From: Incurvaria masculella
Lineage: Eukaryota; Arthropoda; Insecta; Lepidoptera; Incurvariidae
Direction: 5' to 3'
Length of the DNA: 64,000 nucleotides
NCBI GenBank assembly: GCA_946894095.1
Contig: OX335650.1
Location: 248,001-312,000, forward strand
The notes beneath the pieces are model-generated. The model saw nothing but the letters and a program-made list of their open reading frames with translations, made no database searches and was not told the origin of the DNA. The translations under genes and the position numbers were made by a program. Positions 12,040 to 62,360 of the stretch are shown here, piece by piece (the stretch's first letter is position 1; every line of letters starts with the position of its first letter).

Positions 12040-12755
12040 GCATGGATATTTGCCGGTCCCCTCGACTCTGCGTAGAACGGCATAATGTAGCAAGTACTGT
12101 AACACCTGGCAGCACTAACATTTACACTTCTGATTGGCCGGTGAAAATGACACGACACCGGTTCAGTTCGGTAGTCCATATGTCCATCGCCAATATCTGC
12201 ATCGCCACCATCAACCTCACCAATATCTGCATCGCCAACATATGCATCGCCAATATCTCCATCGCCAGCGACGGAGCTGCGACCTGACCGCAAATCCGTC
12301 GCCAACGACCGGAGACGCATATGCGTCGCCAAAAACTGGAGGCGCCGATGCGTCGCCAAAGTGGGTATGGTGATATGTTAATTAGGTTGGGTTAAGTTAG
12401 TTTAGGTTTGGTTATTTTGGTTAGGTTCGGTTAAGTTACGAAAATAACACGACACCGGTTCCGTTCGGTAGTCCATATGTCCATCGCCAATATCTGCATC
12501 GCCAACATATGCATCGCCAATATCTCCATCGCCAGCGACGGAGCTGCGGCCGGACCGCCGATCCGTCGCCAACGACCGGAGACGCATATGCGTCGCCAAA
12601 AACTGGAGGCGCAGATGCGTCGCCAAAGTGGGTATGGTGATATGTTAATTAGGTTGGGTTAAGTAAGGCTAGGTTTGGTTAGGTTAGGTTGTGTTAGGTT
12701 AGGTTAGGTTACGTTAGGTTGGATTAGGTTAGGTTTTGTTGGGTTAGGTTCTTTA
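12040..12755. repeat. Two ~300-bp tandem units of CATCGCCAA-type minirepeats ending in a TTAGG-like tract
   Basis: The unit starting CATATGTCCATCGCCAATAT at about 12177 recurs at about 12474. Each contains several 15-18-bp 'CATCGCCAAYAT' minirepeats, then GACCGGAGACGCATATGCGT and GTGATATGTTAATTAGGTTG. The second unit runs into about 90 bases of irregular (TTAGG)-like sequence, GTTAGGTTAGGTTAGGTTAC and variants. TTAGG is the insect telomere motif, but the copies here are irregular and internal. Confidence 0.75.
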
Positions 12756-17845: not shown

Positions 17846-20117
17846 AAGTAACCAAACTACTACATTGCTTCTCCCCTGGCACATATTTTCAATATCAGCC
17901 TTGAAACTGGTACAGTCCCTCAAATATACAAAATTAGTAATCTAGTACCGATCTATAAAAGTGGCCCATCAAATGAAGTGTCTAAGTATCGTCCAATTTC
18001 CTTGTTGTGCATTTTCGCGAAGCTACTTGAAAAAATCGTTAATGCCAGATGATATAACTTTTTAGAAAGCAACAATATCATATCAAATAGACAGTTTGGT
18101 TTCCGAACCAAGAAATCCACGGAGGATGCAGTAAAACTTCTTTCTGACACCATAACTCAACACCTAGACAGGGGAGAAAGGTGCATTGGTATATTTTTAG
18201 ATCTTGCAAAAGCCTTCGATACTGTATCAATCCCACTCTTACTCAGGAAGATGGAGCTAATGGGTATCCGAGGAATAGCACTTGAATGGTTTAGAAGTTA
18301 CTTAAACTTGAGGCAGCAAGCAGTTAAAATAGGCGATCAGATCAGTGCCTTAGCTTATACTAAATTTGGAGTGCCACAAGGTAGTGTACTGGGGCCAACG
18401 CTTTTCCTCGTTTACATTAATGGTCTCTGCAAAATCAATATAATTAAAGGTTCGGTGATAACATTTGCAGACGACACTGTAGTACTGTTTCATGCAAAGA
18501 CTTGGGAGAGTGTTGCGGATCTTGCACAAAATGGCATAAATACCATTACAAAATGGCTCAGGACTAATCTCCTAACCCTAAACGTGTCAAAAACGAAATA
18601 CCTTTGCTTTCATATTACCGAAGCTACCCGTCCACCGGAATTCGTCATTAAAATACACCATTGTACACTAATGTCATCTCCCACATGCACATGTGAAGCT
18701 ATTATTCGAACAAATCAGACTAAATATTTGGGGGTTATTATTGATGAACGCTTATCCTGGGCACCACACATTGATACCTTAGCCGGTCGAGTCAGAAAAT
18801 TAATGCGCATCTTCAGATCTATACGACAAATTGCCAATTCTAGACTACTAAAAATAGTTTACATTGCATTGTGCCAATCAGTAATCTGCTATTCTATCAG
18901 CGTCTGGGGTGGAGCGATCAAGACCGCAATGCTTAAAGTTGAAAGGGCTCAAAGAGCTGTTATAAAAGTTATGCATCGCAAACACTTTCGATATCCTACG
19001 GAATTACTTTACAATGAATGCAATTTACTGCCTGTAAGAAAATTATACGTTAAATGTATCACGCTTAATTTTCACAAAGAAGCTTCCTTACACATCAACA
19101 CTTCAAACTCTCGATCAAAACGATTAGATACCTGGGTAGTACCTCAAACTAAAACAGTTTTTGCACAAAGATCTCACTCGTTCCTCGGCCCATACATCTA
19201 TAATTATGTCCATAAAATTTGTAATATAAAGGACCTATCAAGCTACCAATGCAAAAAAACTATTACAAATTGGCTAACAGATCTAGATTACAACAGTACC
19301 GAGAATATATTAACAATAACAAAGTAATGTACAAATAGTCACTTCAACAGTTGAGTTCTAATACACACACATATTAATAGATCAAAACTATCAATACTAC
19401 AATGACAAATTCCTCTCGAAAAAAAAAAAAATATAATCTAAAAATTACAAAATTATACTATTTATTATATATATTTATTGCTAGGTTGTGTTTTATAGGA
19501 TGTATATGGAAAAACATTCTACTATGTTACATTTATTGTTATGCAATGCTACATTCTCGCTCATTAAATAGATACCTCAACAAACACACTGAAATAATTC
19601 CTAAAATTAATCAAATTTAAAACGACGTCAATGTCCTAAATGTCTTATGTAACGCAAGTTATAACTTCTACAGATTTGTTTGTACTTACCCTCAACTGTG
19701 ATTCATTTATCTTGCAGCTGGTAAATACCAGGAGCCAAGTAACACTAACATTTTTAATGAAATACAGTGTATTGAACATTAATTGCTTGGATATGCGAAC
19801 AATGTATTTATACACTTTATAATATATGTTAATATTATCTGGAAAAAAAACACCTACACTACTCTCAACTATAACCTACCATCTTCCGACGAAAGACCCT
19901 CTCTCCCATAGCACAGGGAATCCTATTTTGGGAGACAGGGATCCTACAAAATTTAACTACTACATGTTAAAGTATAAAGTAAAAATACATTCAATGAACA
20001 CGATACATACTTACATTACTACACTATCTGAAACCTGTTGATTTGTTTATTATTCTTGTACTTGTACTGAACTTGCTTAATCAGTGAAATAAAGATTATT
20101 ATTATTATTATTATATT
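17845..20117 (+). mobile_element. 5'-truncated non-LTR retrotransposon (LINE), reverse transcriptase nearly intact, (ATT)n tail
   Basis: The readable frame begins near IASPLAHIFN at about 17860, passes YRPISLL and FLDLAKAFD, and continues in the open frame 18251-19327 with GVPQGSVLGP and the catalytic FADDT. One TGA at about 18050 breaks the reverse transcriptase between the motifs KIVNAR and YNFLES. The endonuclease and ORF1 are missing. After the stop come about 790 bases of 3' region ending AATAAAG and ATT repeats. The motifs place it in the Jockey/CR1/I group; I cannot fix the clade. The break and truncation make it immobile. Confidence 0.85.
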
Positions 20118-29533: not shown

Positions 29534-30505
29534 TCAGTGTTTGTTTTCTTTAGCCTTGTCCTCGTCGAACGAAGTGCGAATATCGATAGCGAAGTCCTCG
29601 TCATCTCCGCCGCTTGCAGCCGGTTCCTTCACCTTGATCCCGTCAGCACCGTACGTGTAGCCATCGGGGGGCAAGGCCACGAGTGTTGGTTTATTTTCCT
29701 TGTCTACCTGTTTGGGTGTCTCTGTTGGAGGGTGAGAAACTTGCATGACTGGTGGTCGTTGGCCTTTGTTTCCTTGTTGGTCGCCTTTGACGCTTTCTCC
29801 AGTTTGTTGTTCATTATTTTCTTGAGAAGGTTGAGGCTTGTGGGCCCCCTGATTGGTTCCGTAATCAACACCGCCGTCGTGACCATTGTGGTTATTTTGT
29901 TGAGAATGCTGGTAATTGTGTTGAGGATTGCCACCCCCTTGGTTGTTATTGTAATTCCCCCCAGCTTGGTAACCATATTGGTTATTTTCTTGAGAATGCT
30001 GGTGATTATGTTGCGGGTTGCGGCCCCCTTGGTTATTACCGTAAGTTCCGCCACCTTGGTAACCGTTATGGTAATTATCTTGAGAATGCTGGTAATTGTG
30101 TTGAGGGTTGCGTCCCCCCTGGTTGTTTCCGTGATCCCCCCCATATTGAAATTCATTATGGTTGTTCAAACCGAAGGAGCCACCTCCGCCATAGTGAAAG
30201 CCCGGTGACTCGTGGGTACCTGGCGGCGGGGGCGGTGCACGGTCTTGATGGCGATGCTGATGCAGCAGGCTCGAGAGCCCGAACAGCCCCGGACGTCTCG
30301 GCGGCTCCCGCTCCCCCGACCCGTCCCCCTGCGAGGACACCGACGCCTGCGCACTGAGGCCGAAATTGATGCCTCCGAACAGTCTGTCGGTCACCACCCT
30401 CGAGATTCCTTTGATGGTTTTGTCCGTTTCTTGGATGACATGTTTCACGAGTTGAGATTTACACAACGCTAACGCACAAGCGAAAATGATTATCGATTCT
30501 AACAA
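29534..30505 (-). CDS. Secreted Gly/Asn/Gln/His-rich repeat protein with acidic C-terminal motif (323 residues)
   Basis: Uninterrupted ORF. It opens with a signal peptide (MLESIIIFACALALCKSQ), then a conserved-looking globular or helical part (about residues 19-60), then a Pro/His-rich stretch. Residues 121-226 hold four tandem units of exactly 30 residues built on NNQGGRNPQHNYQHSQ, starting at 127, 157, 187 and 217. A Lys/Pro/Gln linker leads to PPDGYTYGADGIKV. The tail has GDDEDFAIDIRTSF, which matches GDDEAFDIDVRSNF at the end of the 36-kb protein. The repeats resemble extracellular-matrix, cuticle or silk-type low-complexity sequence, but no chitin-binding or other domain is visible. I infer a secreted or structural role only. 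Confidence 0.75.
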   Translation of the reverse strand: MLESIIIFACALALCKSQLVKHVIQETDKTIKGISRVVTDRLFGGINFGLSAQASVSSQGDGSGEREPPRRPGLFGLSSLLHQHRHQDRAPPPPPGTHESPGFHYGGGGSFGLNNHNEFQYGGDHGNNQGGRNPQHNYQHSQDNYHNGYQGGGTYGNNQGGRNPQHNHQHSQENNQYGYQAGGNYNNNQGGGNPQHNYQHSQQNNHNGHDGGVDYGTNQGAHKPQPSQENNEQQTGESVKGDQQGNKGQRPPVMQVSHPPTETPKQVDKENKPTLVALPPDGYTYGADGIKVKEPAASGGDDEDFAIDIRTSFDEDKAKENKH

Positions 30506-31000: not shown

Positions 31001-31187
31001 GACTCCATTCGAAGGGGCTCGCAGCCCGAACTACAAGTCGGACTGTTTGGATCAGAGTACTGCGGGAGTTGGGGGTAAGCCTATCGACGGCTACGGTCAC
31101 GGAGGAGGAAGGTAGACTACCTCTCTCCTCCGTGGCTTACGAGAACGGACTCGCAGGGGCAGTGGTTAGCTGCAACGTTTGTTGTCA
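31001..31187. repeat. Unclassified 190-bp segment between SINE half and pentamer array
   Basis: GC-richer than its flanks, with a hairpin (GGAGGAGGAAGGTAGACTAC against CTCTCTCCTCC). It could be the 3' end of a separate + strand element whose tail is the ATGAA array, or part of the LINE insertion. I cannot decide which. Confidence 0.4.
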
Positions 31188-31319
31188 ATGAAATGAAATG
31201 AAATGAAATGAAATGAAATGAAATGAAATGAAATGAAATGAAATGAAATGAAATGAAATGAAATGAAATGAAATGAAATGAAATGAAATGAAATGAAATG
31301 AAATGAAATGAAATGAAAT
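31188..31319. repeat. (ATGAA)n array, about 26 units
   Basis: About 132 bases of nearly perfect pentamer (ATTTC on the - strand). It abuts the 3' end of the - strand LINE. Confidence 0.95.
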
Positions 31320-33060
31320 AATTTATTGGTCTCAATTATGGGTTGTACATGATACGAAGAATCAATGCTCCCAAAATTCGATCATGTCCATGACTGTGTC
31401 TTCCATAATTTGCGTTTGACCGCGTACAAATATACATATAAACAATAAAAAAAACTGAAAATAATGTTGTTTTATAGATAATTCCCTTATAAACCTATAA
31501 CTATTTATTTTTACTAGGAAATTAATATAACTTATCTAACGAAGAATTCTTCTAAATTATAGAAACATTTTTCTGCTAACCAATTTAAAAGTTTTTTTCT
31601 GAATTTAGTTAAAGGTAATACATTTCTTATCGATTCTGGAATATTGTTATATATTTTTATAGACATGAAGTAAACACTTTTTTTATATAATGCAAGTTTT
31701 GGACTTGGTAAGCATAAGTTATTTTTTGTCCGAGTATTATATCTGTGGGTTGTGCTCACTACCTTAAAATATTGTGGATTTTTCTTCACAAAGATACATA
31801 CATCATAGATGTATTGACATATAAATGGTAACAAATGTAGGTCTTTAAAAAGTGGACGACAACTGTCTCAATTACTTGCGCCAGAAATTGAGCGAATAAT
31901 TTTTTTCTGCATCTTGAAAGCTTTTTCAGCATTTACTGAGTTACCCCACAATGGTAGACCGTATTTTAGAAGTGAGCTGATGTAACCGTGATAGGCTGTC
32001 AAGGCAGTACTTTGATTTGAAACGCGTCTTAAACGCTTCATGGCATATACAAACCTATTCATTTTGGAACAAACAGATTCTACGTGATCCTTCCAACTGC
32101 AATGACAGTCGAGATGCAGTCCAAGAAATTGCATTGTCTTAACTTCCTCTATTTTTTCACCATTATATACAATGTTAAGATCATGTCGACGTCCTTTGTA
32201 GGTGTAAAACTGCATTATTTTTGTCTTATCTATATTTACTCTTAGTGCATTATCATTTAACCATAGTATGATATCAGATAGAGTATTATTTATATCAATT
32301 TGATATGTATCTGGTTGAGTGCATTTAAAAATGATAGAAGTATCATCTGCGAAAAGGACAAACTGATGTTTAGAAATATCGGGCAAATCATTAATATATA
32401 ACAAAAACAATAACGGGCCTAATATACTACCCTGTGGTACCCCAGATGCATTCTTCCTATACTCAGATCGATATATCTCTATACATTTAGTCTCGCATTT
32501 AGTAGAACTGTCATATTTAGACATTTCCGTATGACTTGGTAGGTATGACTTGAGCCAATTATGCGCTGGACCTCTAATTCCATAACAGTATAACTTAGCT
32601 AAAAGTTTTTCATGTGAGACAAAATCAAAAGCTTTGCTCATATCCATGAAAAGAACGGACACTGGCATTTTGTTATTTATACTCTCTGTGATACTCTTTA
32701 ACAAGTCAAATATGGCTATTGTAGTAGATTTATTTTTCCGAAACCCATTTTGTTCGTTCTTTATGACATTGTATTTATTTATAAACGAAGTTATTCTAAT
32801 AAAAACAACTCTTTCAAACACTTTAGATATTACCGGTATCAGAGTAATTGATCTATAAATATTTAAATCTCCTTGTGTACCTTTTTTAAATAGAGGTTTT
32901 ACAATCGATTTTTTTAGATTTTTTGGAAATATTCCTTCCTTTAATGACAAATTTACAATGTGTGTTAAGGGTTTTGACAATTCTTCAACATTCAATTTTA
33001 AAATATTCGTAGGGATTTCATCATAGCCAATAGGCAGCAAATGTCCTGCAGTCACGTCGC
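31320..33060 (-). mobile_element. 5'-truncated LINE, reverse transcriptase broken by one stop
   Basis: The - strand frame 33055-31868 reads GYDEIPTNILK, FRKNKSTTIAI, FMDMSKAFD, GVPQGSILGP and the catalytic FADDT. A TGA at 31868-31870 (after SGASN) is followed in the same frame by the C-terminal region down to about 31532 (RPLFKDLHLLPFICQYIYD, ending in FFVR). A 3' region of about 210 bases and the pentamer array follow. The endonuclease and ORF1 are absent. The protein motifs fit the Jockey/CR1 group. It differs clearly in sequence from the LINE at 17.8 kb. Confidence 0.85.
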
Positions 33061-42059: not shown

Positions 42060-45000
42060 TCAGTCGGCCACGTGCTTTATCTTGACGTAGAGGCAACAGG
42101 AGAAGAGGAAGCCGAAGATGGGGATCACGGACATGCCGACCCCGACCGCTGCCACCACGACCAGGTGCTCCCGGATGTGGTTCGTGAACTGGCGGATGCA
42201 GCCCTGCAACGTACATCATTCATCAATATTTTACAAAGTCTAGAATCAAAAGGACATAGAAAGGTCTGGAAATGGTTCGTGTACATATTGCACAGTGCGC
42301 GCGCGGTCGAATTTCTGTAAACCTGGCCGTCGAGCTTTTTAGGGTTCCGTACCCAAAGGGTGAAAACGGAACCCTATTACTAAGCCTCCGCTGTCCGTCC
42401 GTCCGTCCGTCCGTCCGTCCGTCTGTCCGTCTGTCACAGGGCTGTATCTCAGTAACCGTAACAGATAGACAGCTGAAATTTTCACAGATTGTGTATTTAT
42501 TTTGCCGCTATAACAACAAATAGGTAAGATTATAAAATAATTTAAATTAAAGGGGGTCCCCCATACAAAAGACGTGATTTTTTGTATTATTTTTTTGTTC
42601 GATGGTACGGAACCATTCGTGTGCGAGTCCGACTCGCACTTGGCCGGTTTTTTTTCTCGTTGCCTGCCACACTCTGTGTGGTAAGTGTGTAACACTCAAG
42701 CGTAGGCAACACTCCAGTGACGTGGATCGGAGTGAAGTTGCACCGGAAGAAGGAGGCGGCGGAAGGGGGTTGACCGCCATGTTGTTCAGAGTGAAGACGG
42801 AAAGAAAGAGCTCTCCACGTGGAATTGAGTCTCATCTGTTTTAGGCTTATTAGAGTATATCCTGATATTGCAATCATCTGCAATATTAACCTTCGGTTTA
42901 ATAAGCTAACATAAGATAATACTAAATATAAATAATGATAATAATAATAATAAAAAATATTAATGATAATAAAAAGATAATACTAAAAGAAGAAAATAAA
43001 AAACAAAAATGCCGTATGCATATACATATGTACTTTGTGGCAACAGTTGTTGGATTAAGATTTAAAATATTATTCAGTTTGTTGATTTCTTTATTGTTAT
43101 ATTGTCTGTAATCTGTTATGTTGTCCGAAAATAAATAAAATAAAAAATAAAATAAAATAAAAAAAGATAGAAGAAAGAAATAAATCCTTTAATTGGTTCA
43201 TAAATACACCAAACAATTAAATCTGAGAACTGCACAAAGGCGGATACGTGATAATTTACAGTCAACAGTTGGGGTGACGAAGATAAGAAATGAAAATTAG
43301 TTAAGCCATTAAATAATTCACAATCTTCTGAAATGGGATGGGGTCATAGGTAACATTCTGTATCTATTCTTGATCTGAGTCTTACGTTTAAGTCTCCAAC
43401 TAGCGTTTCTTTTCATCTAACATGGAGGCAAGCAAGTGTGATTCCTATCCCGGAAAATGGTCTTTCCAAATATTACCTCTTTGGTCAAATAATTAGAGGG
43501 TTGTTATAATTTCATAATAATAACTAAACATTTTTTTTTAAATCTCAAACAACATGGTTTCCGTAGCAAGGTATCAACCTCGTCTAACCTTTAAATTATG
43601 CTATTTCAACCATATAGCTGAGAGCATATCTGTCAGGTGTACGACAAAGAAGATGTTTTTCGTTGACGTTTTATTTACTTGAACCCCCTGATACTAAAAC
43701 CTAGCTACCTACGCCCGTGGGCAAATCGCTTGATTGATTATATTCATATCTTCATAAAAGGTGCCAGAAAGTGAAGGCATGTGGATATGAGTCAAACCCC
43801 TTTGAAATAAGCTTTGGTATGTCTCAGGGGTCCCACTTGGGCCTTTTTCATTTATTGTGTTCATTAATCATCTGTAATACTAATAATAGTCATACCAAAA
43901 TGTAAATTCCTGATGTCCGACAATTATATGAAAATGTAAACTGTACTGTTTCTTACAAGAACATTTATGATTACAGAAAGCTCCAGAACGACATGATACG
44001 ATTTTGAGATTCGTGGTCTGAGACATATTGTAATTCAATTGAAGTAAATATAAACATTTCAATATAAACACGCTGGTATTGGCTGTGTCGCAAGGTAAGA
44101 AATCTACGTTCTTGAATTTATTTCTTGCCAATAAGCATTCCGTGCAGGAAGGTATTGTTTGGAGGCGACACTTACGTCGTAGTGTATGTTGGAGGGGTGG
44201 TCGCGCTTGCCGCAGCGCGGTGTTATGCTCTTGCAGCACGAGTCCGGCACGAGGCGCGCGTCCGGCGCCGCCAGCAGCCACGTGCTGCGTCGCCAGTCCT
44301 CGAAGCGCACCGCGCCGCAGCACCGGAACTGCAAATCACAAGTGTATATTGGAGAGGTGGTCGCGCTTCCCGCAGCGTGGTGTGATGCTCTTGCAGCCAC
44401 GCGCTGTGCCGGTCGACGTTTTGGAGCCTAACATTGTCTCCATCATCAGGAGAACGTGCATCTCAACGAAAGTGGGCACTTTAGAGACTACCCGCCGCTC
44501 TAGGGGTCTACTTATGAAACCGAACACGAGAAGTTCTCGTGTTCGCTTTCCTAGATATACTGGTCTACTTATCAGCGCCGATGGCAACTATCGTATATCA
44601 ACTTGAGGATTGGCTGCATTCCGAATTTTATCTAAAGTGCAAAACACCCTGACTGTATTTTTCTCGACGGGTTTTTTCTATGCACTTCTTTGAAATTCAG
44701 TCTTCCGCTTTTCCAGCACAATTCTCATATGGTTGAAATACGGCAGGAATCTCACCGATTGAAGTTCTTGTTTCGCTGATTTCGATAGACTCCCAAATTA
44801 TACGTTCTTGGTGGGATGTTTCGTTGTCCAGGTACTAGAACTTTCACCTGATCAAACTTCGACCAGTGCCGGGTTCCAATTTCGTATACTCACTCAATCA
44901 GATGCAAAAGCGTTTGTGTGAGGCGCTTATTGAGGGGTGGGATGACCTCTCTGGCCTGCCTGCAATCTACCAGGTGTTTCCTTCCGGTATTGTGAAGTAT

Positions 45001-48000
45001 CGTGGCTTTATCCTGTAGCCAGTTTTTAAATTGACTAAGTGATATAGGCCTTATCGGTTCTGGACCCGTTAGTGCTGTACTGGATCCTCTTTTGGCCAGT
45101 TCATCTACAGCGTCATTTCCCACAGAGCCACTGTGTCCTCTTATCCACTGCAGAGTTACATGATTGTTTCTCGCTACTTCTTCTAGGGCGCAATGATATC
45201 CAGAAATACATTTTGTAAGCTTTTAATAAGGATATTTAAAGAGGTCGATACAGCTTATATTATCTAAGTTTTGACTTATTAATGCCTGTCATTGCAATGT
45301 TTGTCAAAATACATAACATACTCTTGATCTTAGCTCTTGATCCATTCATATATCTGTGAACGACCCGATATTATAACGCTTTGCCCGTCACCGATGCGGC
45401 TTAGTAAGTGACCACCGTGAGCCCGAGAAAACTTTTCGATTACGGAGAATGCGGGTAAGCACAAATGAGATTGTTTATAGGCGGGCGGTAAGATTAGGGT
45501 TCCGCGGCAGATATGAGATGGAGGAGTTATTTGGGTCTGAACATAATGCGAAGGCGCTCCCGAGACACTCGGCCGCGCCGCCAGGCGCTGAGCACGCCTT
45601 TCATATATCTCTTGGGAGCATGCGGGTTAGGGATTTGTTTGCTTGAGAAGCCACCAATTTAATTTAACTTGGATTTCGGCGTTTTTCTTGCCCTGTGGCT
45701 TTTGCGATGATACCAGTAAAAATAATGCTGTTCAGTTTGGTATGCTTACATTTTCAATACAAGCTTTGTACATATTACATTGTCAGGTTAGACTACAGAA
45801 TAAGTACTTGGTTGGACTAGACATTGTACACACGATTATTTTTTTATGGAATGAAGAGAAGAGTTAAAATACAATCTCAATTTAGACAGTGCAAACACAT
45901 TATAAATAAATCTTAATCATTATTTGTATCCCCTGATTCCTACTTTATTTTCATAGATAGACTACCTGAATTACGTCGTATACATCGGTATAGGTACATA
46001 TTGTCACGGACAAAGACTGTCAGCCTGAAATACCCAGCATTGCGGATAAAATAAAAAACCGGTCAAGTGCGAGTTGGACTCGCAGACGAAGGGTTCCGTA
46101 CCATCGTACATGATTTAACAATAAAAAATCTCGTTTTTTGTATGTTTTTTTGTATGTATTTTACGTATTTGTTGTTATAGCGGCAAAATAAATACATACC
46201 TTGTGAACATTTCATCTGCCTATCTCTTACGGTTCATGAGATGCAGCCCTGTGACAGACGGACGGACGGACGGATGGACGGACGGACAGCGGACCATAGT
46301 AATAGGGTTCCGTTGGCACCCTTTGGGTACGGAACCCTAAAAACCACGGTCTATTTTAGTTTCTCAGTAAGGTAAGTAAATTGGTTTCCTTCGCGACGCC
46401 TCAACTTCTCACATTTTCAATGAGTATTTTACTTTCTTCTAATACTATGCGATTCTGTTTGCAAGGCTAGTGTGCACGTGCAACACATCTAACGTCTCTG
46501 AAAGCCATATTGACGCCCAACGTAAGGCATAAGAATTGTTGGTCAGAATCTCTTACAGGAATCTTATTCGTATATTATTATACAGGTTGCTCTCAAACCA
46601 TTGTACTCTTAATTTTCTGTAGGTGGTAGCATTTAAAGGATGTTTAAAGGATGAATATAATATTTTTTTTAGCTGTAAGAATAATAATGTGTTATGTATT
46701 TTGACACTCTTTGTTTAGAGGTCACTTTAGTAGTTCATGACAGAAATAATTGAATTAAAACGAAATCGTACAAAGTTTTCACAACTTTTTCATGTTGCAA
46801 CTGTAGTAGTGCCTCGCTGCGGCGACACGCTAGGTTCGGGTCTCCTCTTTCCCTAAAATATGGTTGACAGAGGCGATGGCTGAGCCCGGCCTGATGCTCG
46901 TGAACGGGTGCTGTTTGTGGGGACTGACTTGCTCCAATTGGCAACATGTTAAATGTCGGGCATGGTCTATACAAATAAACTGATATTTGTCATGAACTGT
47001 TGCATATGATATTAATTGTGTGTACTTTATACTTTTGTAAACTTAGACTAAGTGGACGTTGAAAAAAAAACCAGCGGAGTTTCTTGCCAGTTCTTCTTCG
47101 CTGGGATTGCCGAACTGGCTAATGATAAAATGATAAAATATGACAAATCCGAGTGCAGTGAACTGTCTATGGATGATGAATAAACAATAAAACAATAAAT
47201 AAGCCGGCCAACATCCGGCCAATTATTGAAAATAATACACCGTGCAAGACTGCGTACAAGCAAGCTACACTCAGATAATTATTTTTTTCTTATTTGAAAG
47301 CATTATATTATGACTTCAAACAGAACAACAGTTACAGATACAGATTACAATTTCTGGTATATACCTTCACGGCCTCCCTATAAGAAGAATTATCTACGTC
47401 AGTAGGTACTCTAGGAAATCCTGTTCCCACCCCACAGTTCTTTCCCTAGGCCTCCCCGCAGTGAGTAATAGTTTGTACTGCATCAAGTCCACTGCGCGCG
47501 TGACAGGAGGCTCCACGGCGTACTGCTGCAGGAAGGTCGCGTTGAGAATCTCCCGCAGCTCCGTCTCCACAGCCACCTCGTAGTAGTATGTACGATTTCA
47601 CCCACCTCAGCCTGCATCAAGTCCACTGCGCGCGTGACAGGAGGCTCCACGGCGTACTGCTGCAGGAAGGTCGCGTTGAGAATCTCCCGCAGCTCTGTCT
47701 CCACAGCCACCTCGTAGTAGTATGTACGATTTCACCCACCTCAGCCTGCATCAAGTCCACTGCGCGCGTGACAGGAGGCTCCACGGCGTACTGCTGCAGG
47801 AAGGTCGCGTTGAGAGTCTCCCGCAGCTCCGTCTCCACAGCCACCTCGTAGTAGTATGTACGATTTCACCCACCTCAGCCTGCAGCAAGTCCACTGCGCG
47901 CGTGACAGGAGGCTCCACGGCGTACTGCTGCAGGAAGGTCGCGTTGAGAATCTCCCGCAGCTCCGTCTCTACAGCCACCTCGTAGTAGTATGTACGATTT

Positions 48001-51000
48001 CACCCACCTCAGCCTGCATCAAGTCCACTGCGCGCGTGACAGGAGGCTCCACGGCGTACTGCTGCAGGAAGGTCGCGTTGAGAATCTCCCGCAGCTCCGT
48101 CTCCACAGCCACCTCGTAGTAGTATGTACAATTTCACCCACCTCAGCCTGCATCAAGTCCACTGCGCGCGTGACAGGAGGCTCCACGGCGTACTGCTGCA
48201 GGAAGGTCGCGTTGAGAATCTCCCGCAGCTCCGTCTCCACAGCCACCTCGTAGTAGTATGTACGATTTCACCCACCTCAGCCTGCATCAAGTCCACTGCG
48301 CGCGTGACAGGAGGCTCCACGGCGTACTGCTGCAGGAAGGTCGCGTTGAGAATCTCCCGCAGCTCTGTCTCCACAGCCACCTCGTAGTAGTATGTACGAT
48401 TTCACCCACCTCAGCCTGCATCAAGTCCACTGCGCGCGTGACAGGAGGCTCCACGGCGTACTGCTTCAGGAAGGTCGCGTTGAGAGTCTCCCGCAGCTCC
48501 GTCTCCGCAGCCACCTCGTAGTAGTATGTACGATTTCACCTACCTCAGCCTGCATCAAGTCCACTGCGCGCGTGACAGGAGGCTCCACGGCGTACTGCTG
48601 CAGGAAGGTCGCGTTGAGAGTCTCCCGCAGCTCCGTCTCCACAGCCACCTCGTAGTAGTATGTACGATTTCACCCACCTCAGCCTGCATCAAGTCCACTG
48701 CGCGCGTGACAGGAGGCTCCACGGCGTACTGCTGCAGGAAGGTCGCGTTGAGAGTCTCCCGCAGCTCGGTCTCCACAGCCACCTCGTAGTAGTATGTACG
48801 ATTTCACCCACCTCAGCCTGCATCAAGTCCACTGCGCGCGTGACAGGAGGCTCCACGGCGTACTGCTGCAGGGAGTCTCCCGCAGCTCCGTCTCCACAGC
48901 CACCTCGTAGTAGTATGTACGATTTCACCCACCTCAGCCTGCATCAAGTCCACTGCGCGCGTGACAGGAGGCTCCACGGCGTACTGCTGCAGGAAGGTCG
49001 CGTTGAGAGTCTCCCGCAGCTCGGTCTCCACAGCCACCTCGTAGTAGTATGTACGATTTCACCCACCTCAGCCTGCATCAAGTCCACTGCGCGCGTGACA
49101 GGAGGCTCCACGGCGTACTGCTGCAGGAAGGTCGCGTTGAGAGTCTCCCGCAGCTCCGTCTCCACAGCCACCTCGTAGTAGTATGTACGATTTCACCCAC
49201 CTCAGCCTGCATCAAGTCCACTGCGCGCGTGACAGGAGGCTCCACGGCGTACTGCTGCAGGAAGGTCGCGTTAAGAGTCTCCCGCAGCTCCGTCTCCACA
49301 GCCACCTCGTAGTAGTATGTACGATTTCACCCACCTCAGCCTGCATCAAGTCCACTGCGCGCGTGACAGGAGGCTCCACGGCGTACTGCTGCAGGAAGGT
49401 CGCGTTGAGAGTCTCCCGCAGCTCCGTCTCCGCAGCCACCTCGTAGTAGTATGTACGATTTCACCCACCTCAGCCTGCATCAAGTCCACTGCGCGCGTGA
49501 CAGGAGGCTCCACGGCGTACTGCTGCAGGAAGGTCGCGTTGAGAGTCTCCCGCAGCTCCGTCTCCACAGCCACCTCGTAGTAGTATGTACGATTTCACCC
49601 ACCTCAGCCTGCATCAAGTCCACTGCGCGCGTGACAGGAGGCTCCACGGCGTACTGCTGCAGGAAGGTCGCGTTGAGAGTCTCCCGCAGCTCCGTCTCCG
49701 CAGCCACCTCGTAGTAGTATGTACGATTTCACCCACCTCAGCCTGCATCAAGTCCACTGCGCGCGTGACAGGAGGCTCCACGGCGTACTGCTGCAGGAAG
49801 GTCGCGTTGAGAGTCTCCCGCAGCTCCGTCTCCACAGCCACCTCGTAGTAGTATGTACGATTTCACCCACCTCAGCCTGCATCAAGTCCACTGCGCGCGT
49901 GACAGGAGGCTCCACGGCGTACTGCTGCAGGAAGGTCGCGTTGAGAGTCTCCCGCAGCTCCGTCTCCGCAGCCACCTCGTAGTAGTATGTACGATTTCAC
50001 CCACCTCAGCCTGCATCAAGTCCACTGCGCGCGTGACAGGAGGCTCCACGGCGTACTGCTGCAGGAAGGTCGCGTTGAGAGTCTCCCGCAGCTCCGTCTC
50101 CACAGCCACCTCGTAGTAGTATGCCAACGAACCGGCACCCGCCTCCATTAAAAATGTGATGAGCAGGAAGTACGTGTACTGAAAGAACAAAATTGTATTG
50201 ATCAATTTAGTAAAGGATATAATGAACAACATATTGATTTGTCTACGGAAACACAAAGTGGAACATTGTTGATATTTTTATCTATTTAAGGTGGGCCTTT
50301 CCGCTTAACTCCCCATACAAACGTGGAAAGAAGATCATGCCCATAATTCTTATCGGCGATCCATATTTTTTTAAAAAAGCTTAATTTGATCGAAATTGAT
50401 GTCTGATGACTGTTGGCATTGTAAAATTATATCTGTTTTCGAAGTTACAAGGTCCTAAAGTTCGAAATTTTCGCGCACTTTTTATAAATAAGTTTGGACC
50501 TGGATTACTTAACGATAAAATTGAAAAATTAAAAATAGGTTAGTCATCAAACCTAGCTTGTTTCAAGAAGATTTGTGGTTTTTGTTTGATTGTTGACTAA
50601 AGCGTTCGTAATTTACTTGAAAAAGTTAATAAAAGTGCCCGCGAATGAGTTAGTCCCGTCGAGAATGGCCACCGTTGTCTTAATAATTTGAGGTTCAACA
50701 ACGCTACATTGAAGCTTTTTAATCATATTTTGTAAATAATCAGAAAAGGCTTTTGGTATAGACATTTGCCTTCAGTCGAGACCATTTTTTTTTCTGATTA
50801 CCTATTTTCAATATCAGATTAAAATTATTGGATGTAGATGTCGGCGAACCTCACATTATTGGAACTCGATTAGTTCATAATGCAATTGTGCTTACTAAAA
50901 AAATATTAAAACGGGTTTATTTGGATTTTGAGCAAAGCAGTTCCAATAACTAACTTGTTAAAAAAGAGATCCGACGGATAAACGACATCCAATTTAATGA

Positions 51001-52256
51001 CTTTAGTCGACAGTACATGATATATGAAAATAGAACAGCACTTACACATAGCAGGCTAGTTCTGTTCTCCTTCCTTAGGCCACAGCAGCCAAGTAAGCAC
51101 AATGGAATGCCCAGAGCACCCGCCGCAACTAGCAGATACGTGACGGCGACGTAGGTCGGTGTCGACAGAAGCGCCACGTATCGGTGCCGAGTCAACACTG
51201 TCCATACGCCCACCGCAAGCACGCCGCATCCTGCGAACTGAGATGAGATGCAGATTCAGGTTACCAGCATACGTGATGGCTACGTAGGTATGCGTCGACG
51301 CAGACCAGTGTAGGTGTGAGGGGTCGGCTCCCTAGCAGTAGAAAGCCGTATCCTGTGAACGGTTATGCAGAAAGGAGCCGAGTGACCAGCTGATACGCGA
51401 CGGCGATGTAGGTCATCGTCGACAGCAGCGCTAGAGCAACGGTTCCTCGCCAGCACGCCACATCCTACGAACTGCAATAAGAAACATAGCAAGGCTACCA
51501 GCGTGCATGCGTGATGGCGAGCGTGATGGCGCAGATGGTCAGCGTCGACAACAGCGCCAATGTTGTCGTGCCGGCTTAGGGCCATTCACACGCCCACTCC
51601 AAGCATCCTAAGAACTGTTATGCAAGGCATAGTCGAGACATGCGACTCATAGAGTTACATACCAGCAGATATGTAACGGCGCAGTTGGTCAGCGTCGGCA
51701 TCGCGCTGTTGATCCGCCCGCCCACTGCCAGTATGGCGGATACGATTGAGACATAGTCGCACCGCCAGAGGGTATTCGACGGCACAGTTGGTCATCGTCA
51801 ACATCAGCGCCACCACCGTTCAGAGTCAGCACTATCCAAAAGCTCACCACTAGTACGCCTCCGCATAATGTAAGGCATATAGCCGAGAGCTCCGACGTAG
51901 CCACACATTAGACGTAGCGGTGTCCTGACAGTGAGCCATGACCACAAAGATCAAAATAAGTCAGCCATTAGGAACTACGTGATTATTGTGTTCTCGGTAG
52001 CCACAAATGGTACCAGTGAAAATTCTTAATCTCAATAGTATAATATTGCATAGTGACTGTTAAGAACGTTACAACATCCACTAACAATAATATAATTTGC
52101 GCAGTTACACGAACTTACCATATACACTACGTTGAATATGTGCAAAACGCACTTCAAGAAGTTGACGCTGCAGCAGTCTTCGTCCCGCGACTTTTTCACT
52201 TTCGTCTTTTTGGTTGCTTCCAGCAGCGCCCCCGTGTCCTTCTTCACCCCACTCAT
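42060..52256 (-). CDS. CD151-like tetraspanin, 5 exons: 52256-52119, 51237-51046, 50178-50005, 44328-44176, 42203-42060
   Basis: All exon junctions are phase 0 with GT-AG introns, giving 266 residues. Exon 1 holds a basic cytosolic N-terminus (MSGVKKDTGALLEATKK) and the start of helix 1. Exon 2 completes helix 1 and carries helix 2 (AVGVWTVLTRHRYVALLS, LLGCCG). Exon 3 holds helix 3 and the start of the large loop (EAGAGSLAYYYE), with an N-glycosylation site NAT. Exon 4 carries the diagnostic CCG (about 171-173), PDSCC (about 196-200) and CGKRD. Exon 5 carries GCI and helix 4 (FLFSCCLYVKIKH). The CCG, PDSCC, CG-x-RD and GCI pattern and C-terminus are like vertebrate CD151, a partner of laminin-binding integrins. 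Three of its exons have copies in neighbouring introns. The start is the first ATG in frame; upstream codons are open but lack an ATG. Confidence 0.92.
42334..42656 (+). repeat. 'GGTTCCGTA/GGCCAAGTGCG' interspersed repeat, copy 5
   Basis: The best preserved copy: TTTTTAGGGTTCCGTACCCA at one end and GACTCGCACTTGGCCGGTTT at the other, with about seven TCCG units. It lies in tetraspanin intron 4. Confidence 0.9.
42890..43170. repeat. AT-only low-complexity, (AAT)n and (AATAA)n tracts
   Basis: Two simple-repeat blocks (about 42930-43000 and 43130-43165) bracket ordinary AT-rich sequence. Such tracts often mark LINE 3' ends. Here no coding part adjoins them. Confidence 0.5.
43400..43930 (+). mobile_element. 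Decayed LINE reverse-transcriptase relic
   Basis: Broken + strand frames give QHGFRSKVSTSSNL (QHGFR block), then SNPFEISFGMSQGSHLGPF (the GVPQGSHLGP block). The catalytic region between or after is lost. It lies in tetraspanin intron 4. Confidence 0.65.
44336..44400 (-). pseudogene. Partial copy of tetraspanin exon 4 in intron 3
   Basis: On the - strand it reads GCKSITPRCGKRDHLSNIHL and stops. This is the same as CKSITPRCGKRDHPSNIH of exon 4, with P to L. It ends only 8 bases before the true exon 4 begins, so the true acceptor lies immediately after the copy. Confidence 0.8.
44890..45205 (-). mobile_element. LINE RNase H domain fragment
   Basis: The - strand frame reads NNHVTLQWIRGHSGSVGNDA, then DELAKRGSS, then LTGPEPI. 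This is the W-x-x-GH-x-G-x-x-GN-x-x-A-D-x-LA block of retrotransposon RNase H domains (R1/Jockey/I type). The frame ends at a stop soon after. It lies in tetraspanin intron 3. Confidence 0.75.
46053..46344 (-). repeat. 'GGTTCCGTA/GGCCAAGTGCG' interspersed repeat, copy 6
   Basis: It runs from ACCGGTCAAGTGCGAGTTGG to GGTACGGAACCCTAAAAA. The GGAC tract contains a GGAT variant. Confidence 0.85.
46880..47205 (+). mobile_element. Probable LINE 3'-end fragment
   Basis: CCAGCGGAGTTTCTTGCCAG, TTCTTCTTCGCTGGG and the tail GAATAAACAATAAAACAATA look like LINE 3' ends common in Lepidoptera. The left part shares GATGCTCGTGAACGGGTGCT with an inverted block near 16000. Confidence 0.45.
47478..50004 (-). repeat. 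134-bp minisatellite derived from tetraspanin exon 3: 18 whole units and one truncated distal unit
   Basis: Read on the - strand, each unit has 105 bases identical or nearly so to the end of exon 3 (VAVETELRETLNATFLQQYA to AVDLMQAE). It then carries the splice donor GAG|GTGGGTG and about 29 bases of intron ending CATACTACTACGAG. Starts on the + strand fall at 47588, 47722 and so on every 134 bases to 49987. One short unit of 121 bases (48794-48914) has a 13-base deletion. With the real exon this makes 20 copies. Units differ at few sites (GAGAATCTC or GAGAGTCTC, CTCCACAG or CTCCGCAG). The leftmost unit lacks the donor. Confidence 0.95.
50005..50178 (-). CDS. Tetraspanin exon 3, source copy of the minisatellite
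   Basis: 174 bases, phase 0 at both ends. The acceptor is TTCTTTCAG|TAC and the donor GAG|GTGGGTG. Only this copy has the 5' part coding helix 3 (YTYFLLITFLMEAGAGSLAY). The repeated unit starts at CATACTACTACGAG inside this exon. Confidence 0.9.
50290..50689. mobile_element. Decayed TTAA-flanked MITE, copy 3
   Basis: It starts after TTAA at 50286-50289 with GGTGGGCCTTTCCGC and shares CTCCCCATACAAACGTGGAA, AGAAGATCATGCCCATAATT and GATGTCTGATGACTGTTGGC with copy 1. The right end is eroded. It lies in tetraspanin intron 2. Confidence 0.6.
51260..51885 (-). pseudogene. Array of about five decayed copies of tetraspanin exon 2
   Basis: On the + strand the exon block ATACGTGACGGCGACGTAGG, TCGGTGTCGAC recurs as ATACGTGATGGCTACGTAGG (about 51269), ATACGCGACGGCGATGTAGG (51393), a GCGCAGATGGTCAGCGTCGA version (51530), GTAACGGCGCAGTTGGTCAG (51673) and GACGGCACAGTTGGTCATCG (51778). 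Several copies also keep the exon's other end (GTATCCTGTGAAC, CATCCTACGAACTG, CATCCTAAGAACTG). Spacing is about 105-155 bases. Frames are broken. The array fills most of intron 1. Confidence 0.75.
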
Positions 52257-60686: not shown

Positions 60687-62360
60687 TCAATCATCGAAAT
60701 TGTGCAAAGTGTTCTCCAATTTCTCCACAACCTTCTTGTAAAAGTGTATTTGCTGCCGGAGGAACTTCTGCATGGCAGACTTGAGGTCGATCGTCCTCTC
60801 CGCCTTGAAGTGGTTGATCTCAGCGAGCAGAGCGTAGGAGATGACGTCCGTCCGGCGGAGCACCTCGTTCAGCTGCGCCACTTCCATCTTGTGGTCGGCC
60901 GTCAGCCGCTCGCACTCCCGTTTCTTCTGTATGGCACCTCGGTGGTTGGCCAGCACGTCCGGATACGCGGCCACGATGCCCTTGTACAGGTGGAACTTGT
61001 CCCCGAGCGGCTCCCAATCGTACTTGGGCTGCTCCTCGTACATTCTCCCGATCTCGATGTACGCGCCGCCCGTCAGCTTTATCGCCGATGTAAGTTTGGA
61101 TGTTGATATCACTGACCCCTCGTCCAAACCGAGAGCGTTGCCTAAATTGTAAAACGCCTCGCCGACCTTTTGACTGTCCATCTTGTAAGGGCCCTGAAAT
61201 CTTTTCGTCTGCGCCATGCACATATTCATCAGCATCTTTATGCTGCCATCCATGCTGGATATGAACACGGCATTGTGATCAGTTATCTGGTCCACTTGGG
61301 ACTGAAGCAGAGCCTTTTCAGGAGGGACTAGCGATATGCAATAATTTAGGCCGAGGAGGTTGTCTTTTTCAGCTTGCCGTTTCCCGGCCTTCCATCTCTT
61401 CTCATCGGTGCAGGTGAGAAAGTGCTGCCAGACCTCACTCCGGGACAGCACGGGATGCTTGCAGACCCAATCCACAAACTCTTGGAGTTGCACCCGTCTC
61501 CGCTCTATGACCTGCTCATCGTACCTCCCAGATATCTGCTTGTCGGGCAGAGGAGGGATCGGTATCAAACAAAACTTTTCCACTAACCTTTCATGCAGCC
61601 AATCAAAGTGTTTATATCGCCGCGACACTTGTATGTTATTAAACGATGGAGTCAGTTGATATGCGATAAAACTCTTCATGCCCTTGAACTTGGATTCTTT
61701 CTTAGGGGAGGCGACCGATACTCCATAGGGCTGTGCGTTCGGGGCCCAAACAAAACCTTCCTCATCCTGCACAATAAAGACTTTCTCCGGGTCTGAAACT
61801 TCAACATTGAGTGTGCCGAGGAGGTAGCTCTCTCCGCTGAACTTGGTGGAGGGTGAGAACTTGCTTTTCCTGGCAACCGTACCCATTTGGGAGCCTCCAT
61901 AATTGGAAGTGACATCGTCTCGATTGTAGTCATCGATGGGAAGCCCGGGGATGGTAGCGGGTGGGTTGTGTGTGGAGCCGTGCGTGCGTTGCTGAGCCTG
62001 CCCGGGACCGATCTCCGAGTAGGTGTCGTCGTCGTCCCAGTCGTCGTCCCAGCCCTCTGTGGGTTTGTAATTCTGGTCTCCCGCGCTGTAGTGCTGGTCG
62101 CCCCATTCATCGGCGGCCCGGTCGTAGCGCGCGGGTGCAGGTGCGGAGGCGGGAGCGGGCGGGGCGGGGGCAGGTGCCGCCGCCAGCTTCTGCACGTAGG
62201 TGGCGGGAAAGAGACCGCACTGTCCCTGTGAGTTTCTCCCCTCCCACCACCCGTCCCCGATGTCGGTACTGATGAGTGTAAGGATCTCGCCGGACGATAT
62301 GGAGAGCTCGGTAGTGCCCGGCTCCCCAGTGAAGTCGTACAGCGCCTGCACTTGCGACAT
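60687..62360 (-). CDS. SH3PX1: SH3-PX-BAR sorting nexin (SNX9/18/33 type, SH3PX1)
   Basis: Complete 557-residue ORF without introns. The family bends membranes and works with dynamin, actin nucleators and clathrin adaptors in endocytosis. The SH3 domain spans about residues 3-58 ([21 protein letters not shown]). A Pro/Ala linker and an acidic WDDDWDD motif (about 104-110) follow; the latter matches the AP-2/clathrin-binding region of SNX9. The PX domain spans about 213-318, with RRYKHFDWL and PPLPDK for phosphoinositide binding. The BAR region runs from about 340 to the end ([19 protein letters not shown]). Start: ATG in CACCATG. An acceptor-like TTTTAG|GTTGG lies 19 bases upstream, so a non-coding first exon probably lies further right. 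Confidence 0.95.

Follow-up and report, generated by a model that had tools for sequence, protein, structure and literature searches.

Tandem exon duplication giving rise to alternative exons is a known class of gene rearrangement, and the human 6-16/IFI6 (G1P3) gene reportedly harbors a minisatellite which, by the title of the 1995 work of Turri, Cuin and Porter (NAR 23:1854), 'provides multiple splice donor sites'. By analogy, this minisatellite is the closest precedent for the structure described here, a 20-copy array formed by the exon 3 end and its splice donor in a CD151-like tetraspanin gene of the moth Incurvaria masculella. The array is located in a 64,000-nucleotide stretch of DNA, referred to below as the window, which corresponds to C10:248001-312000 (contig OX335650.1) of a 552-Mb, 31-contig assembly, approximately 0.25 to 0.31 Mb from the contig start; positions are given from the first nucleotide of the window. 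We consider it probable that the array was produced by tandem duplication and unequal exchange, that it is mostly removed as intron, and that the gene repeatedly duplicates its exon edges. In both the human and the moth gene, a tandem repeat provides further copies of an exon's splice donor; unlike the short human unit, of about 12 bp, the moth unit is 134 bp, of which 118 are coding, one end of the array is a functional exon, and the donors are predicted only. Two downstream repeat units of IFI6 are, as stated in a passage of a later paper, used as donors.

Passages of PMC2812944 describe internal tandem repeats in human duplicated genes, some of which extend over exon-intron boundaries and are able to alter splicing; these repeats, on average 30-bp units present four times in segmental-duplication genes, differ from the moth array of 134 bp by 20. 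Intron gain through the tandem duplication of AGGT segments is, according to extracts of PMC3443670, PMC2891723, and PMC4974935, an established model that has been backed in vivo; one extract mentions fission yeast genes in which an exon segment of 24 bp with AGGT recurs several times. As in that model, the tandem copies in the moth supply AG/GT pairs (a slash marks the junction here and below), whereas, unlike the intron-gain cases, a real donor forms part of the duplication, which sits in an existing intron, has a much longer unit and array, and is at most a candidate for a new intron. Tandem exon duplication likewise repeats exon sequence inside one gene, but the moth copies are exon ends, without either the native acceptor or the start of the exon. 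Among the literature matches listed, consisting of titles, the starts of abstracts, and passages, no description of this array or of moth tetraspanin exon-edge arrays was recognized. The Leguminivora genome paper, PMC11005160, mentions tetraspanins, and neither 'CD151' nor 'tandem repeat' was found in the available parts of its text.

The tetraspanin gene is encoded on the minus strand by five phase-0 exons, every join falling between codons, and its joined frame is intact and specifies 266 amino acids (aa), the range for the ordinary full-length proteins of moths and butterflies examined being 265 to 267 aa. The CD151-like identity proposed by the first-pass annotation is borne out by a Pfam match of the product to Tetraspanin PF00335 (E 2.1e-43) and by 65 to 77% identity, calculated over the aligned part only, to 21 of 23 database matches (50% and 38% in the other two). 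Named relatives among these 23 matches are lepidopteran proteins, several of which carry the label CD151 antigen. The FRCCG motif encoded by exon 4, in the large loop, together with the domain and the intact frame, assigns the product to the tetraspanin class. The exons, the array, and the exceptional array copies are as follows (nt, nucleotides).

52119-52256, minus strand: exon 1, from the ATG, with donor ATG/GTAAGT (splice-scored)
51046-51237, minus strand: exon 2, 192 nt
50005-50178, minus strand: exon 3, 174 nt, with acceptor TTCTTTCAG/T and donor GAG/GTGGGT; its final 118 nt are array copy 1
47478-50122, minus strand (C10:295478-298122 of the assembly): 20-copy array whose 134-bp unit is made up of the exon 3 end, its donor, and 16 bases of intron
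48796-48916, minus strand: array copy 10, with a 13-bp deletion (unit positions 45-57), frame shifted and closed, NAT lost, donor kept
48528-48661, minus strand: array copy 12, with donor GAG/GTAGGT, scoring slightly above the real donor
47478-47589, minus strand: array copy 20, which ends after GATGCAG, without a donor
44176-44328, minus strand: exon 4, encoding the CCG motif and the large extracellular loop
42060-42203, minus strand: exon 5, which includes the stop codon

Tandem Repeats Finder reported a single array at 47478-50123 with a period of 134, 19.8 copies, 97% matches, and a score of 5061, and cutting the sequence at ATACTACTACGAGG yielded 20 copies inclusive of the real exon, 18 of which are 134 bp in length, with copy 10 being 121 bp and copy 20 shortened. 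The copy number and the unit, including the exon end and donor, are thus as first proposed, whereas the proposed division of the unit into 105 exon and 29 intron bases required correction to 118 exon and 16 intron bases, as ATACTACTACGAG, formerly taken as intron, codes for YYYE in the real exon 3. The view that every copy possesses its own donor applies to 19 of the 20 copies (GAG/GTGGGT in 18 and GAG/GTAGGT in copy 12), in which the tandem unit holds the exon's own donor in the manner of a donor minisatellite, but not to copy 20. Similarly, the exon frame is open in 19 copies, which retain NAT, as had been supposed of all, the exception being copy 10, in which the deletion shifts the frame and removes NAT. 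The copies begin inside the exon and the native acceptor is found solely before copy 1, as had also been predicted, and the array is therefore not one of whole duplicated exons. On the minus strand of the window, the 9-mer GAGGTGGGT is present 18 times, each time inside the array region, and it is absent from the plus strand; chance, therefore, cannot explain the array. When a 151-base unit probe was applied to the species' own 552-Mb genome, all 20 of the 20 matches obtained lay within the array, such counts being lower bounds and the uniqueness of the array holding at the search sensitivity used.

The junction sequence GAAATCGTACATACTACTACG occurs 19 times in the array, one occurrence bearing a C>T change, while the exon at the matching place reads TTGGCATACTACTACG and the sequence following the last GATGCAG of copy 20 is TACAAACTATTACTC. 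The ancestral intron may have read GTGGGTGAAATCGTACAAACTATT, in which case the duplication would have joined intron to exon at a common CA, and copy 20 would subsequently have lost 19 bp, inclusive of its donor. The array is likely to have originated from a tandem duplication spanning the exon-intron boundary of exon 3, with expansion presumably proceeding by unequal exchange. Each unit contains GAGGTGG twice, 105 bp apart, which places AGGT in the duplicated segment as in the Rogers model, and the GAGGTGG at E/V, 105 bp from its twin at the donor, may be a seed for slips of this kind.

Variation among the copies is confined to nine columns; pairwise differences average 1.7 with a maximum of 5, the copies being about 96 to 100% alike, and each copy differs from copy 1 by 0 to 3 substitutions (copy 10 additionally by its deletion). 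This mean is consistent with the earlier suggestion that the near-identical units are young or kept uniform. The further a copy lies from the exon, the more it tends to differ from copy 1 (Spearman 0.51, p 0.02, with copy 1 among the copies counted). Copies two units apart (lag 2) resemble each other more closely than when their order is permuted (2000 permutations, P 0.014), as illustrated by unit position 21, which alternates between T and C through copies 1 to 6; adjacent copies (lag 1) show no such excess likeness in the same test (P 0.31). The lag-2 likeness and the rising divergence away from the exon are as would be expected from multi-unit exchange. Selection on the copies is not shown by these sequences, 4 of the 8 distinct coding changes (sorted by hand) being synonymous versus an expected 24% (p 0.10).

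Splice sites were scored with a matrix that does not derive from a database. The native exon 3 acceptor attains a score of 9.74, while the real exon 3 donor has a score of 8.63 and a U1 pairing energy of -9.5 kcal/mol, values which are the same for 17 distal copies and slightly better in score for copy 12 (9.19). In both score and U1 pairing, this donor exceeds those of exons 2 and 4; the exon 1 donor scores 10.63 but pairs at -8.6. The first donor, which adjoins the sole native acceptor, is expected to prevail through this position, in which case the 266-aa protein would be produced and the array would be discarded within a 5.7-kb intron. Splicing from each of the 18 distal donors was computed to produce an exon 3 of 308 to 2573 nt, and 18 of 18 such isoforms end at a common stop in copy 2, resulting in 208 rather than 266 aa and upholding the original expectation of a frame shift followed by a stop. 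Because this stop is shared, the product of donor slippage would be independent of copy number, and occasional use of a distal donor would give rise to one truncated 208-aa product or to decayed mRNA. The distal copies may thereby act as the decoy donors envisaged by the first-pass annotation.

That distal donors are really used, as in human 6-16 (IFI6), with the array dampening the gene or yielding a truncated three-helix tetraspanin of 208 aa, is a proposal which we regard as unlikely. It is favored by the presence of 18 intact distal donors that equal or better the real donor in score and U1 pairing, by the two downstream IFI6 units mentioned above, and by the predicted Leguminivora isoform X3, which reads past the exon 3 donor into a shifted second copy, stops at 216 aa, and resembles the 208-aa product predicted for Incurvaria. 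Nevertheless, internal exons of 308 to 2573 nt would be needed, and the native acceptor is present at copy 1 only.

The units might alternatively be spliced as cassettes, an acceptor at CTTCCTGCAG/CAG and the unit donor defining a 54-nt phase-0 exon preceded by an 80-nt intron and adding 18 codons per unit to the large extracellular loop. The score of this acceptor, 5.19, is close to those of exons 2, 4, and 5 (5.88, 5.37, and 5.65, respectively), the cassette is open in copies 1 to 19, all 18 distal cassettes when chained form an open 590-aa frame, and the predicted proteins of Ostrinia and Plutella detailed below (P0024 and P0026) contain extra copies in frame. However, 5.19 falls between the 90th (4.12) and 95th (5.69) percentiles of the 192 AGs taken as background from the same intron, and, as the score is ordinary for this background, the cassette reading is given little weight. 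Copy 10 furthermore lacks part of the pyrimidine tract, copy 13 has AAG, and the Ostrinia units are of 35 codons (one of 41) with a different start, indicating that the Ostrinia model does not use the CTTCCTGCAG acceptor; cassette splicing is, in our estimation, very improbable. Two further splicing schemes were ruled out: recursive splicing, as no pyrimidine tract precedes GAG/GTGGGT (acceptor score -2.51), and, for Incurvaria masculella, splicing from a donor to the next ACGAG/GTGG, where the intron would be just 29 nt and the acceptor scores -1.91.

The array is not the only duplication of an exon edge in this gene, which carries three such sets, involving exons 2, 3, and 4. The relics of exons 2 and 4 are as follows.

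51269-51859, minus strand: remnants of tandem copies of the acceptor and 5' part of exon 2, now decayed, lying in intron 1 at 51859-51778, 51700-51661, 51559-51522, 51501-51448, 51431-51385, and 51299-51269
44341-44397, minus strand: relic that matches exon nt 92-148, the end of exon 4, over 57 bp at 91% identity, in intron 3 directly upstream of exon 4

Local alignment scores of the exon 2 relics range from 31 to 54, compared to a maximum of 27 in 100 mononucleotide shuffles, and five of the six, all but 51859-51778, were recovered by blastn. The best relic (54) also surpasses the maximum of 31 in 60 dinucleotide shuffles, whereas the weakest, 51559-51522, is doubtful, since its score of 31 equals that maximum. 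Where the equivalent part is retained, these relics are spaced 124 to 150 bp apart (determined by hand from the coordinates). Each exon-intron pair was also compared with 60 dinucleotide shuffles, the array being excluded from intron 3, and 2 of 20 pairs stood out, namely exon 2 with intron 1 (54 versus 31) and exon 4 with intron 3 (89 versus 24). The exon 4 pair was also among the nine rows, representing eight places, returned outside the array by a window-wide scan for direct repeats (at least 30 bp, within 2.5 kb, E 1e-4), a cutoff below which the decayed exon 2 copies fall.

Comparable duplications were sought in 123 proteins derived from three database searches, which were scanned for internal repeats in frame and in shifted frame; each protein represents a cluster at 90% identity, one search gave the best 120 of 178, and annotated proteins cannot reveal purely intronic arrays. 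In-frame internal repeats were detected in 3 of the 123 proteins, those of Ostrinia nubilalis (P0024), Plutella xylostella (P0026), and a goby (P0103). The predicted Ostrinia protein (377 aa) contains the exon 3 end four times, in frame, before FKCCG, and two of its units start exactly at E/V, where GAGGTGG stands in the Incurvaria exon. In the predicted Plutella protein (428 aa), the exon 3 end is present twice and the exon 4 end appears again further on. Three proteins stood out in the shifted-frame scan, P0103, P0026 (exon 4 copy, 45.5), and Leguminivora glycinivorella P0016 (exon 3 copy, 26.5), the next score being 11. The out-of-frame Leguminivora copy compares with a maximum of 8 in 300 shuffles, and the positive control, the read-through of Incurvaria itself, scored 35 versus a shuffle maximum of 9.5. 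Because the predicted proteins of three other moths contain extra exon 3 ends, exon-edge duplication is likely to be recurrent in the moth CD151-like gene. Ostrinia, Plutella, and Leguminivora presumably belong to the Crambidae, Plutellidae, and Tortricidae, respectively. A bolder proposal, which we hold to be doubtful, is that the moth CD151 gene represents a standing exon-edge factory, in which several families amplify the exon 3 end (in addition to exons 2 and 4) with its splice sites, some species splice the copies in frame, and the number of loop repeats differs between neighboring species or individuals.

Certain candidates were set aside. The tail of Spodoptera exigua P0020 is a frameshifted exon 4 (80.5 versus a shuffle maximum of 11) and barely passes as an exon 3 copy (9.0 versus 8.5), while that of S. 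frugiperda P0003 displayed no exon likeness (3 versus 7 in shuffles). The exon 3 end is 60.8% identical to seven reference moths and butterflies in Incurvaria, 58.8% in Plutella, 72.7% in Leguminivora, and 83.3% in Ostrinia; the idea that the array speeds protein change was dropped in view of the Ostrinia value and because the other Incurvaria exons have diverged too. The predicted CD151-like protein of the goby Knipowitschia caucasica, P0103, contains several copies of a 31-residue repeat at the same exon 3/exon 4 junction, which by eye is unlike the exon and was not retained as an exon 3 copy.

The proposal that duplication and unequal exchange generated the array, that it is for the most part spliced out with the intron, and that the gene repeatedly duplicates its exon edges must be weighed against a number of observations which count against it. 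By our own count, 18 of 21 named lepidopteran species show no extra copy in the proteins examined (3 of 21 do), the second Plutella protein, P0018, is without extra copies, and the evidence from other moths consists of predicted proteins only. The 18 distal donors score equal to the real donor, such that position alone favors the first. The copies are, moreover, nearly identical and their number is known from the assembly alone, which is in keeping with an assembly artifact, whereby one or few true copies were overcounted. Against such an artifact stand the structured order of the nine variable columns, the 13-bp deletion in a single copy, the unlike flanks, the 31-contig assembly, and the presence of further copies of this exon in moths that were annotated separately, and we judge it highly improbable.

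The array of Incurvaria constitutes a natural experiment on splice-site choice, in which 19 intact donors, 18 with an identical 9-mer, lie behind a single native acceptor, and, as copy number could be compared between individuals, a rule whereby the nearest donor wins would be testable. Should the genomes of other moths confirm these findings, a single gene would show exon-edge arrays arising and decaying time after time, with old (exon 2), middle (exon 4), and fresh (exon 3) stages side by side, and intron and exon growth by tandem duplication would be directly observable.

Elsewhere in the window, a frame of 557 aa runs without interruption at 60687-62360 on the minus strand and encodes SH3, PX, and WASP-binding BAR domains; its product is presumably of the sorting nexin 9 kind, and the intronless frame may represent a retrocopy or a large exon. 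A 323-aa open frame at 29534-30505 (minus strand) contains a 90-bp coding repeat present 2.9 times, is rich in G, N, Q, and H, and matches no Pfam family. Two reverse transcriptase frames (PF00078), at 18251-19327 on the plus strand and 31868-33055 on the minus strand, are probably both derived from retrotransposons. Finally, a perfect AATGA repeat of 26.6 copies is located at 31187-31319, and a tandem duplication of approximately 300 bp, with 84% identity and several short repeats inside, is located at 12143-12713.

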